Shown here in pieces: positions 30,818-57,847 of a stretch of 64,000 nucleotides of DNA; position 1 is the stretch's first letter; each line of letters starts with the position of its first letter. Source of the stretch: Acidobacteria bacterium Ga0077534 (GTDB lineage Bacteria > Acidobacteriota > Blastocatellia > Pyrinomonadales > Pyrinomonadaceae); NCBI GenBank assembly GCA_001464455.1, contig LNEI01000010.1:124001-188000 (forward strand). The letters are read 5' to 3'. The position numbers and the translations under genes were made by a program. The notes under the pieces were generated by a model, which did no database searches, was not told the origin of the DNA, and saw only the letters and a list, made by a program, of their open reading frames with translations.

Positions 30818-31783
30818 GTGCTTAGTCAAGTTGTTGAGTTAATTGAAAATAAGGAAGTCTTCGCGATCACGACGCATATCAAGCCTGATGGCGACGGTGT
30901 CGGATCGTCGTTGGGGCTTTGCTGGCTCTTGCGTTCGCTCGGGAAAGAGGCGGAGGTGATCGTGCATGGTGAGGTCCCACCTGCCTACAGAAGCCTGCCG
31001 GGTGCGGATGAGATCCGCGATGTCAGGTACGTAAACGGAAAATACGACGCTATCTTCGTTATCGAATGCAGCGATGTCAGCCGTCCCGGCATTGCCGGCC
31101 TTGAGAATCAGTTCACCGTAAATATTGACCATCACGCGACCAGCGAACATTTCGGGACTATTAACTGGATAGATTCGACTGCGTCGGCTGTTGGTGAAAT
31201 GATCTATAACCTGTGTAAGGCGATCGGCGGAAGAATAACAAAAGAGATCGCCGAATGCGTCTACATGGCGCTCGTTACCGACACCGGCTCGTTCCACTTC
31301 CCCAACACTTCCGATAGGACGCTCAAAGTCGCGTCTGAATTAATTAAAGCCGGAGCGAAACCTGAAAAGATCGGCGAGGCTGTTTACAACAACTATCCCT
31401 GGTCGCGGATAGAACTGATGCGCCGCGTACTCGCCACAGTCAAACGTGACGATACCGGAGCGGTTGCGTCGATTCGTCAAACGCTTGAAATGTCGGACGA
31501 ATCTGAAGCGATCGACGGAGACAACAATGGTTTTGTAAACATTCCGCTCGCTGCCCGCGAGGTCAAGGCCGCACTCTACATGCGAGAGATCGCTCCCGGA
31601 AAGTATCGGGCAAGCCTCCGGTCGAAGGGCGACATAAATGTTGCCCGGGTAGCAGAAAAATTTGGCGGCGGTGGGCACAAGAATGCTTCCGGACTTAGTA
31701 TAGAAGGCGATTGGGACCAGAAAGAGGCTGAGATCATCGCCGCACTGGTCGAGGCGATCAAGAAGTCAGAACCGCCTGCGTAA
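30818..31783 (+). CDS. nrnA: DHH/DHHA1 phosphoesterase, NrnA-like oligoribonuclease / pAp phosphatase
   Basis: Degrades short oligoribonucleotides (nanoRNA) and 3'-phosphoadenosine 5'-phosphate. It has 321 residues. Metal-binding motifs are H20-x3-D24-x-D26 (THIKPDGD), D84-region ECSD and the DHH signature D104-H105-H106. The DHHA1 domain ends with GGGGH at 283-287. GTG 30818 is the start. The last residues, SEPPA plus stop, are encoded by the left arm of the 101-bp inverted-repeat element that begins at 31765, so the natural C-terminus has been set by that element. Its presence behind rbfA is a common gene order in many phyla. Confidence 0.92.
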   Translation: MLSQVVELIENKEVFAITTHIKPDGDGVGSSLGLCWLLRSLGKEAEVIVHGEVPPAYRSLPGADEIRDVRYVNGKYDAIFVIECSDVSRPGIAGLENQFTVNIDHHATSEHFGTINWIDSTASAVGEMIYNLCKAIGGRITKEIAECVYMALVTDTGSFHFPNTSDRTLKVASELIKAGAKPEKIGEAVYNNYPWSRIELMRRVLATVKRDDTGAVASIRQTLEMSDESEAIDGDNNGFVNIPLAAREVKAALYMREIAPGKYRASLRSKGDINVARVAEKFGGGGHKNASGLSIEGDWDQKEAEIIAALVEAIKKSEPPA

Positions 31784-31865
31784 ACGGGCGGAAATCTACT
31801 CTTTTTCTGATCAACGCTGAGCATTCGCAACTAACCTGCCGCCCGCTTACGCAGGCGGTTCTGAC
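31765..31865. repeat. 101-bp inverted-repeat element, copy 1
   Basis: Left arm 31765-31791 and right arm 31839-31865 are 27-base complements with one mismatch (core GTCAGAACCGCCTGCG). A homologous copy is at 56825-56927. The 47-base interior shares sequence with the other copy. The left arm encodes Ser-Glu-Pro-Pro-Ala-stop at the end of nrnA; the right arm ends two bases before the cobO ATG. Confidence 0.92.
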
Positions 31866-31867
31866 TT

Positions 31868-32449
31868 ATGGCTGAGAAACGCTACAAATGGCGGCGCGAT
31901 GATTATCGCGAAAACACGAAAGGCCTGCTAATGCTCAACACCGGCGACGGGAAGGGCAAGACGACGGCGGCAATTGGCGTGATGGTCCGAGCCGCGGGTC
32001 GCGAGTTAGAATGCTGCATGATCCAGTTCATGAAATCCCGCAATGACCGTTACGGTGAACACGAATCCTTTGAAAAATTAGGAATCGAGGTTCACACAAT
32101 GGGCGATGGCTTCACGTGGGACACAAACGACAAGTCACAGGATATAAAGACATCTGAGGAAACCTGGGCACTTTGCGTTGAAAAGATGCGAGCCGGGGAC
32201 TACGATCTGCTCGTTTTCGACGAGCTTCTTTATGTACTGAGCTATGGATTTTTGGATATTGACGCGGTGCTCGGGGAAATTCGCTCGGTTCGTGCCGAAA
32301 AACCCCACCTTCACATCATTTTGACGGGCCGAAATATCGACAACGCCCTCGAGAAAGTGATCGAGGCGGCAGACCTCGTCACCGAGATGAAAGAGGTGAA
32401 GCATCCATTCTACGCCGGCATTTACGCGCAACAGGGGATCGAGTTTTAA
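31868..32449 (+). CDS. cobO: Corrinoid adenosyltransferase (CobO/BtuR type)
   Basis: Transfers the adenosyl group of ATP to cob(I)alamin or cob(I)yrinate diamide, making coenzyme B12 forms. It is 193 residues. The P-loop NTGDGKGKTTAA lies near 24-35, followed by IQFMKSRNDRYGEHESFEKLGIEVHTMGDGFTW and the metal-binding DYDLLVFDELLYVLSYGFL segment. It needs a cofactor user: methylmalonyl-CoA mutase support genes (mce, meaB) lie at 56-58 kb. The ATG follows the repeat element by two bases, so any ribosome-binding site would be inside the repeat arm. No corrinoid riboswitch was seen. Confidence 0.93.
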   Translation: MAEKRYKWRRDDYRENTKGLLMLNTGDGKGKTTAAIGVMVRAAGRELECCMIQFMKSRNDRYGEHESFEKLGIEVHTMGDGFTWDTNDKSQDIKTSEETWALCVEKMRAGDYDLLVFDELLYVLSYGFLDIDAVLGEIRSVRAEKPHLHIILTGRNIDNALEKVIEAADLVTEMKEVKHPFYAGIYAQQGIEF

Positions 32450-35112: not shown

Positions 35113-36066
35113 ATGAGCGAACTAGCAACGACATTACGCGTTGACCATATCACAAAGCGCTTTGGCGATTTCACCGCCGTCGAAGACCTCAGCTTTGAGC
35201 TGAAGGCGGGGCGGGTTTTTGGTTTTCTGGGGCCAAACGGAGCAGGGAAAACGACGACCATTAGAATGATCGTCGGTATCACCGCTCCGGACGAAGGGCG
35301 GATCGAACTTTTTGGCGAAACGATGTCGTCAAAGCTTCAGGACCGGATCGGCTATCTTCCCGAAGAACGCGGCCTGTACAAGAAGATGAAGATAGTGGAC
35401 CAGCTTCGCTATTTTGCCGCCTTGAAAAATGTCCCCGCCAATGTTGCTGAAAAACGCATCGATCGCTGGCTCGAACGTCTCGGGTTGGGAGCGTGGAAGG
35501 ACAAGAAAACAACGGATCTTTCCAAGGGAATGCAGCAGAAGATCCAGTTCATCTCGACCGTTCTCCATGACCCGGACCTGCTGATCCTCGACGAACCTTT
35601 TTCGGGGCTTGATCCGGTAAACGTCGAATTTATGATCGAGGTCCTAAGCGAATTCCGCGATCAGCATAAGACACTCATCTTTTCGACCCACTTAATGGAA
35701 ACGGCGGAACGGCTTTGCCATGACATTATCTTGATCAACAAATCGCGAAAAGTTGTCGGCGGAAGTCTGCGCGAGGTGAAAGCAAGTTACGGAAAAAATC
35801 TTATTGCTTTGCGCGTGACCGGCGGTGACGCCGTCTTGAACGACAGGGCGATAGTCGCCCGTGTCGACGAGCACGCCGATGAGATGTACGTCGAACTTAC
35901 GGACGGTGTCGACCCGCAGCTTCTTCTGAAACGCCTGATCGACAGCGGTGCGCACATTTCGAAGTTTGAACAGGTCGAGCCGACACTCAACGATATTTTT
36001 ATTGAACTGGTAGGCGGAAGCGAGGCGGAAACGCCTGTGTTAGCGGGCGGGGCGCACGCCGCATAA
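35113..36066 (+). CDS. ABC-2 exporter ATP-binding protein (NatA-like)
   Basis: A 317-residue ATPase. Walker A is GPNGAGKTT (40-48), the signature LSKGM 136-140 and Walker B LLILDE 156-161, with the D-loop SGLD after it and a switch His in STHLME. The C-terminal extension of about 90 residues (DUF4162-type) is usual for this ABC-2/NatA class. The ATG follows an intrinsic-terminator-like structure closely. It pairs with the permease gene 54 bp downstream. NatAB systems export sodium or toxic compounds; the substrate here is unknown. Confidence 0.92.
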   Translation: MSELATTLRVDHITKRFGDFTAVEDLSFELKAGRVFGFLGPNGAGKTTTIRMIVGITAPDEGRIELFGETMSSKLQDRIGYLPEERGLYKKMKIVDQLRYFAALKNVPANVAEKRIDRWLERLGLGAWKDKKTTDLSKGMQQKIQFISTVLHDPDLLILDEPFSGLDPVNVEFMIEVLSEFRDQHKTLIFSTHLMETAERLCHDIILINKSRKVVGGSLREVKASYGKNLIALRVTGGDAVLNDRAIVARVDEHADEMYVELTDGVDPQLLLKRLIDSGAHISKFEQVEPTLNDIFIELVGGSEAETPVLAGGAHAA

Positions 36067-56824: not shown

Positions 56825-56927
56825 GTCAGAACCGCCTGCGTGAGCGGGCGGCAAAAGTGCTTCTTTATAATCGACGCTCTCAGAACCCGATACTTAACTG
56901 CCGCCCGCTCACGCAGGCGGTTCTGAC
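56825..56927. repeat. 103-bp inverted-repeat element, copy 2
   Basis: Arms 56825-56851 and 56901-56927 are perfect 27-base complements (core GTCAGAACCGCCTGCGTGAG). The right arm, read on the minus strand, supplies Ser-Glu-Pro-Pro-Ala-stop to meaB. The interior matches copy 1 at 31765-31865 imperfectly but clearly. Confidence 0.93.
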
Positions 56928-57847
56928 AGTATTGCCTCGACCGCCGAGTACGGATCCATTTTTTTCTCTGCGATCTTTCGCGCTAGATCCTCAAGCCGTT
57001 CGCCCGTACCGTTTCGACTCAATAGATCTGTCAACAACCGCTCCCGCACCAATTCGGTAAGCCGCCATTTTGCTATCGACACGCGACGGGCACTGGACTC
57101 ACCTCCGCCCGCGATGAACTCTAGATAACTCACAATAGCGGCATCGAGATCCTCAATGCCTTTATTTTCCGTCGCGATCGTCTTAATGATCGGCGGCATC
57201 CACATATCGGGGCGGTGGGCGAGGGAAAGCAGGGCTTCGAGTTCTTTTTGGGTGCGGAGAACGCCTTCGCGGTCGGCTTTGTTGATGACGAAAACATCGC
57301 CGATCTCCATTATCCCGGCCTTGATCGCCTGAATGTCGTCGCCCATTCCGGGCACCAGCACCACCACCGAAACGTCCGCTGTCTTGACGATCTCAACCTC
57401 GTCCTGGCCCACGCCCACGGTCTCCACGATGACCTTGTCATAGCCTGCTGCATCAAGGATCGCCACGGCATCGACCGTCGCACGCGAAAGGCCGCCGAGA
57501 TTGCCACGTGTCGCCATCGAGCGGATAAAGATATTTTTATCAAGCCCAAGCGTCGCCATGCGGATACGGTCGCCGAGGATCGCACCGCCCGAAAACGGGC
57601 TCGATGGGTCAATACAAACGATACCAACCTTGTTGCCCTTTTCTTTGTAATAAAAGGCCAGCTTATCGACCAGCGAAGATTTCCCCGCACCCGGCGAGCC
57701 TGTTATACCGATCACCGTTGCCCGGCCGGTCTTAGGAAATACAGCCTTCATTAACGCCGCCGCACCTTCGCCGCCATTTTCGACCTGCGTGATCGCACGG
57801 GCAACAATTCGCGGATTTCCCTCAAAAATTTGGTCGATATCGATCAT
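56909..57847 (-). CDS. meaB: Methylmalonyl-CoA mutase-associated GTPase MeaB
   Basis: A G3E GTPase that protects and reactivates adenosylcobalamin-dependent methylmalonyl-CoA mutase. 312 residues. P-loop GSPGAGKSS at 50-58; G motifs DPSSPFSGGAILGDRIRM and VETVGVGQDEVEI; NKADREGV. The final residues ILSEPPA are encoded inside the right arm of the 103-bp repeat, so the natural C-terminus was set by the element. Mutase genes are not adjacent. cobO at 31.9 kb makes the cofactor and mce lies next door. Confidence 0.94.
   Translation of the reverse strand: MIDIDQIFEGNPRIVARAITQVENGGEGAAALMKAVFPKTGRATVIGITGSPGAGKSSLVDKLAFYYKEKGNKVGIVCIDPSSPFSGGAILGDRIRMATLGLDKNIFIRSMATRGNLGGLSRATVDAVAILDAAGYDKVIVETVGVGQDEVEIVKTADVSVVVLVPGMGDDIQAIKAGIMEIGDVFVINKADREGVLRTQKELEALLSLAHRPDMWMPPIIKTIATENKGIEDLDAAIVSYLEFIAGGGESSARRVSIAKWRLTELVRERLLTDLLSRNGTGERLEDLARKIAEKKMDPYSAVEAILSEPPA

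Follow-up and report, generated by a model that had tools for sequence, protein, structure and literature searches.

The 64,000-nt window analyzed here (C10:124001-188000, i.e. positions 124,001 to 188,000 of contig LNEI01000010.1, in the 4.2-Mb genome of Acidobacteria bacterium Ga0077534, the source genome, G000) contains two copies of a short palindromic element, each an inverted pair of repetitive extragenic palindromes (REPs) of the kind termed a REP doublet forming hairpin (REPIN). Taken together, the evidence makes it very probable that these elements belong to a system of REPINs and a REP-associated tyrosine transposase (RAYT) that lives partly inside proteins and is moved by a Y1 HuH transposase. 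In the mechanism we propose, the enzyme copying and inserting the REPIN, in the form of single-stranded DNA, would be a RAYT: a single-tyrosine HuH transposase akin to TnpA-Y1 class 3, the gene for which would lie elsewhere in the genome and itself be flanked by such REPs. Insertions would land both within and between genes; those surviving in genes would keep the frame by having a length of 1 mod 3, and would be read as a small-residue peptide rich in Pro, Ala and Gly, located in loops or linkers that are permissive. If the first REP has TAA or TGA as its loop codon, the protein would be ended with a SEPPA-stop and such copies would persist at gene ends, while internal copies of the subfamily that ends NrnA and MeaB would carry a sense loop codon (TCA, TTA).

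REPINs in the window and across the genome

Both window elements are REPINs, with two inverted REP hairpins (GTCAGAACCGCCTGCGTNAGCGGGCGG) flanking a spacer of 47-49 nt. REPIN 1 (101 bp, 31765..31865, plus strand) lies between nrnA and cobO and is an inverted pair of subfamily 1 REPs with a 47-nt spacer. Its first arm (GTCAGAACCGCCTGCGTAAACGGGCGG, 31765..31791, plus strand) encodes the SEPPA-stop of NrnA at 31766-31783, and its second arm (GTCAGAACCGCCTGCGTAAGCGGGCGG, 31839..31865, minus strand) is identical to the consensus and ends 2 nt 5' of the cobO ATG. REPIN 2 (103 bp, 56825..56927, no strand assigned), between meaB and a downstream minus-strand gene, has perfect arms, of which the meaB-distal one is GTCAGAACCGCCTGCGTGAGCGGGCGG (56825..56851, plus strand) and the second (56901..56927, minus strand) encodes the SEPPA-stop of MeaB, ending in TGA. 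A sequence-only reading of the window had described these two copies with 27-base arms and homologous interiors; both are real, with arms that extend slightly further, to 29 nt in REPIN 1 (31763-31791/31839-31867, 97% complementary) and 30 nt in REPIN 2 (56824-56853/56899-56928, 100% complementary), and the 47- and 49-nt interiors are homologous in the plus orientation (alignment score 9.5, equaled by 0 of 2000 shuffles). The arm occurs at exactly 4 sites in the window at ≤3 mismatches, as against 0.00 expected from shuffles.

Genome-wide, the window-type arm (subfamily 1) was recovered at 70 sites with ≤3 mismatches and the arm of a sister subfamily 2 (GTCAGTACCACCTGCGGTAGCGGGTGG) at 58 sites with ≤2 mismatches, the two site lists overlapping in part and the reversed pattern giving 0 in each case; the possibility that only two copies exist is thereby excluded. 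The elements were gathered by pattern, in stretches around the pattern matches, and their counts are lower bounds. In the stretches fetched from the source genome at least 131 arms of the two sister subfamilies combine into 93 elements, comprising 55 single arms and 38 REPINs, the latter always in the order plus then minus and with a total length of 79-162 nt. The arm is a 27-nt REP hairpin with an 8-bp stem that starts with CC/GG, a 4-nt loop, and a GTCAG foot, followed by W and A, that points outward in paired REPs. The third stem pair (10-25), which is G-C in 68, A-T in 51 and C-G in 5 of the 131 arms, shows the highest mutual information among all column pairs. A T-G wobble persists in 126/131 arms, and for this reason folding is more favorable for the GTCAG strand than for its complement (-9.5 vs -6.2 kcal/mol), an asymmetry that would be expected if single-stranded DNA were recognized. 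Such an anatomy is that of REPs and REPINs (PMC3116915). The sole Rfam match of the hairpin, to a microRNA, was rejected as sub-threshold (26 bits vs a gathering score of 100).

The sequence-only reading had further proposed that the arm supplies the C-termini of unrelated genes, and translation agrees with this: NrnA ends as KKSEPPA-stop and MeaB as ILSEPPA-stop. The SEPPA-stop and the REP are both absent from 24 same-genus orthologs of each gene, whose protein ends differ slightly, with none sharing the same end without the repeat. Because of this absence, the last residues and the stop codon of both proteins are, as judged by comparison, supplied by the arm and not conserved coding sequence. 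The two host genes encode a DHH/DHHA1 phosphoesterase recognized by Pfam (nrnA, 30818..31783, plus strand) and MeaB (56909..57847, minus strand; PF03308, 2e-93), and the minus-strand gene downstream of meaB is, by position and reading, probably a methylmalonyl-CoA epimerase. The cobO/btuR gene (31868..32449, plus strand; PF02572) begins with its ATG at 31868, 2 nt past REPIN 1, and an AGGCGG ends 9 nt 5' of this ATG; from its position it is plausible that REPIN 1 carries the ribosome-binding region of cobO.

The best-surviving alternative, though still an improbable one, is that the elements are kept as RNA hairpins that stabilize or end transcripts between co-directional genes, with the in-gene copies being side effects. 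Both window copies indeed lie between co-directional genes (nrnA-cobO; meaB and the next gene) and have very stable RNA folds (-53 and -74 kcal/mol, z -8.5 and -12.4), and REPs are located mostly just 3' of open reading frames (ORFs) according to Di Nocera 2013 (PMC3733652). However, the 24 relatives of each gene have the element at neither place, so it has not been conserved for regulation; a terminator would do harm inside genes, where about a quarter of the copies lie; and the sequence of the two window copies shows no run of T after the arms.

Copies within genes

As the sequence-only reading held, copies do occur at gene ends, but they show no specificity for them, since many are found mid-gene in frame or in intergenic regions. 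In the source genome 24 of the 93 elements, 13 of them REPINs and 11 single arms, are in-frame parts of ORFs whose coding signal is present to either side of the element; some of the elements counted as being outside ORFs may sit in weakly scored ORFs, e.g. that at C10:268577, in a polymerase gene. Nine of the 10 element-bearing ORFs checked had domain matches, one being without a match, and these include MutS2 (with two REPINs), an MsbA-like ABC transporter, chorismate synthase (aroC), an aldehyde dehydrogenase, leucyl-tRNA synthetase (leuS), an Mpl/MurC ligase, a DnaE-type polymerase and an M1 peptidase with several elements. Although the arms have other open frames, internal REPINs are nearly always in the frame read as S(E/V)PPAxAGG...PPAxAGG(S/T)D. 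In subfamily-1-type arms (those with T at position 17) a single loop base decides between a stop (TAA, TGA) and a sense codon; therefore, one and the same element either ends the protein with a SEPPA-stop or is read through. Among such arms this base is C/T in the first arm of 11/12 internal REPINs vs 4/13 second arms (p = 0.004), and in 4/15 first arms at 3' ends. By reading, 8 gene ends with a SEPPA-stop are present in the source genome, including those of NrnA and MeaB and two with one changed residue.

The total length of the REPINs shows a comparable bias, being 1 mod 3 in 13/13 internal copies vs 4/11 without an ORF in the source genome, and in 14/16 vs 6/16 in the relative G008 (Fisher p = 8e-6 with both genomes pooled). 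The 162-nt pairs in G008 C10 and G000 C12 are exceptions to the length rule; judging from their translations, they resemble two single REPs with a piece of shared host coding sequence between them. We infer that the length and loop-base biases were caused by selection against frame breaks and not by target choice. It is rather unlikely that the transposase instead prefers a target phase or sequence, such that the in-frame SEPPA reading would result from targeting: the same AroC and MutS2 loops do hold different inserts across species, and the base 5' of GTCAG is seldom C (3/76), but the lengths of REPINs without an ORF are spread over all residues mod 3 (4/4/3 in the source genome, 6/6/4 in G008) and the flanks of the elements show no strong consensus. 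Less likely again, and by some distance, is that the internal elements are untranslated and that the long ORFs represent chance read-through or pseudogenes. Such a view could draw on the modest codon scores of some element-bearing ORFs; against it stand the positive coding scores on both sides of the insert, the single curated families that span it (MutS2 residues 4-832 of 834, 717 bits; LeuS, 977 bits), the frame-keeping length of 27/29 REPINs in two genomes, and the fact that many of the host genes are housekeeping genes. In the proposed mechanism the decorated proteins would be made and functional.

Five 121-bp copies (C9, C11, C18 twice, C19) all lie in ORFs, share one orientation and keep the frame, with a first arm that has a C-run/GGGGGG stem and a sense loop codon. 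On this basis one might tentatively entertain, as a somewhat doubtful possibility, a REPIN sublineage adapted to life inside genes. If the 121-bp copies do give rise to further copies, harmless translation would be what selection favors in the element, which would then be a case of selfish DNA shaped by the genetic code for which the transposase is known. In the window itself, a degenerate REP with 4 mismatches (36024..36050, plus strand) is found in the 3' end of an ABC-ATPase-like ORF (35113-36066), where it is in frame and read as EAETPVLAGG.

Candidate transposase and comparison with relatives

The sequence-only reading had noted no transposase in the window; elsewhere in the genome there is a Y1 gene that is flanked by the same arms. 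Among 12 Y1-type matches in the source genome, GTCAG hairpins adjoin only the genes on C11 and C13, each with its own subfamily; the other Y1 genes were rejected as a source, their flanking hairpins being unrelated. The C13 gene is bracketed by two exact window-type REPs (subfamily 1, foot CAGA) and is broken by one in-frame TAG, whereas the C11 gene, bracketed by the sister type (subfamily 2, foot CAGT), is an open frame of 169 residues. Relatives of the C11 protein are present in 72/162 genomes of the class, the named ones being from Acidobacteriota (including Pyrinomonadaceae, Blastocatellia and Chloracidobacterium-labelled assemblies) and one planctomycete (Planctomycetota), and at 15/30 relative loci an upstream hairpin with a GTCAG or GTCGG foot lies 34-156 nt away, with differing stems. 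The HuH histidines and the Tyr and Gln of Y----Q are invariant in 28/28 sequences. NHxH is likewise present in 28/28, with V at x in 17 and the query itself having NHAH; a Trp is also invariant, with a variable next residue (Q, N, K, P, T...). Against the general Y1_Tnp model the protein scores weakly (18.4 bits, under the cut-off of 23), and its NHxH and Y----Q motifs would place it near TnpA-Y1 class 3, two features fitting only in part. Its motifs and REP-bracketed gene suggest that a transposase of this type moves the elements. That they are instead classical miniature inverted-repeat transposable elements (MITEs) that have terminal inverted repeats and are mobilized by a DDE transposase is extremely improbable in spite of their long, perfect inverted arms and short, non-coding interior, given that matching flanking 2-mers as signs of a target-site duplication were found in 0/38 REPINs vs 2.7 expected, that single arms are common (55/93), that the bracketed gene encodes a Y1 HuH protein and that each arm is itself a hairpin; of the earlier MITE-like designation, the dispersed and non-autonomous nature stands and the plain inverted-repeat MITE does not.

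A second repeat, GCACGAAGTAAGGGCG-like, is observed 3' of nrnA or meaB in relatives (L123, L153, L167, L169), and also adjoins a third, more distant Y1 gene of the source genome (L039, G000 C27:148869), the product of which is 46% identical to the C11 protein. This repeat is perhaps the own REP family of that third gene.

AroC has ~38 extra residues between the parts that align to the solved chorismate synthase 1q1l (1-261, 299-406), which itself lacks the insert. Some relatives have little or nothing in this loop, and others have there either a REPIN of a different sort (L173, L174, L178) or some other repeat. At both insertion sites of mutS2, relatives are empty or have a different insert in the same loop. 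Another recurrent in-frame peptide, SPPYEGGVAAASADGVVLS, is seen in the same permissive MutS2 loops of relatives (L378, L380, L381, L384, L387), along with further loop peptides such as SEPGAIATG, AETRPVGSVP and QETGDRRQETG-like runs, and translation of several repeat families appears to occur in the genus. In an ABC transporter different REPINs occur right after the same NFIQP(K/T) in G000 C9 (L028) and G008 C206 (L374), which may reflect either independent insertion or replacement. The REPs of G013, of the same genus, often form same-strand arrays between genes (L241-L305), in contrast to G000 and G008, where the copies are paired and in part genic.

Several points weigh against a REPIN/RAYT system that inhabits proteins. 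The ORFs were called from codon scores alone, with thresholds of our own. The nearest relatives are too diverged (~80-87% protein identity in the compared genes) for base-exact empty sites and for a definition of the inserted unit. The in-frame TAG interrupts the very Y1 gene that the window's subfamily brackets, and this subfamily may now be immobile or dependent on the C11 protein. Finally, G013 has 153 elements, mostly unpaired, and because only 3 of these are inside ORFs the in-gene habit is lineage-dependent; as a general habit of the genus it was rejected in G013 and upheld in G008.

Relationship to known repeat systems

The REPINs and RAYTs of Bertels and Rainey 2011 are reportedly characterized by a unit of two inverted REPs, a RAYT gene with flanking REPs and a high copy number. 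The present system is reminiscent of these in its inverted REP pair, REP-flanked RAYT gene and many copies, and differs in its GTCAG foot, as opposed to GTAG/GGAG, and in the large in-gene share in two species. With regard to the transposase, the passages of PMC6006769 that describe TnpA-Y1 class 3 report it from Acidobacteria, Planctomycetes and Proteobacteria and give it flanking hairpins with a 5' CnGA foot, the HuH motif as NHVH, Y----Q, and W followed by T or A; the hairpin copies can be numerous (~600 in Solibacter usitatus). The occurrence in Acidobacteria, the NHxH and Y----Q motifs and the hairpin-flanked gene are shared with the class so described. The CnGA foot is matched by the CAGA of subfamily 1 and not by the CAGT of the sister subfamily, and the residue after the Trp is variable, T/A not being consistently kept. 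Those passages also report no copies inside genes, such as are seen here, and a literature search, with subscription papers outside its coverage, turned up no account of class 3 repeats within genes; with the peptide strings it returned only unrelated uses of 'SEPPA'.

Intragenic REPs and REP-supplied stops (PMC3733652) are, on the other hand, already known, as are the in-frame Rickettsia elements (PMC10969869). Intragenic GTAG REPs and REP-supplied stops at gene ends have been described in Opitutus terrae and others (PMC3733652), and the present REPs resemble these in both respects; however, the arms carry GTCAG then W and A in place of the GT[AG]G foot, and the stop is a TAA/TGA of the hairpin loop and not a terminal TAG. 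In CGTC REPs the stem is 8-9 bp and the loop 4-5 nt long and head-to-head dimers occur, and no dedicated transposase was found for related CGTC repeats by Di Nocera 2013 (PMC3733652), while Rickettsia palindromic elements occur in frame in unrelated genes (PMC10969869). The elements described here are likewise palindromic, in-frame inserts in unrelated genes with similar stems, loops and dimers, and differ in foot, stem start and tail: the terminal CGTC/TGTC/CCTC, A-T stem start and CCA tail of CGTC REPs and Rickettsia RPE-4 and RPE-6 are not found in the arms. Peptides like SEPPASAGG or PPATAGGTD in proteins of Acidobacteriota would be repeat-derived, and should not be taken for conserved motifs. 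The habit of in-frame palindromic elements in bacterial proteins, best known from Rickettsia, is also encountered in Acidobacteriota, where, unlike in the Rickettsia elements and CGTC REPs, a candidate transposase gene is flanked by the same repeats, making both the entry into genes and the passing of selection testable.
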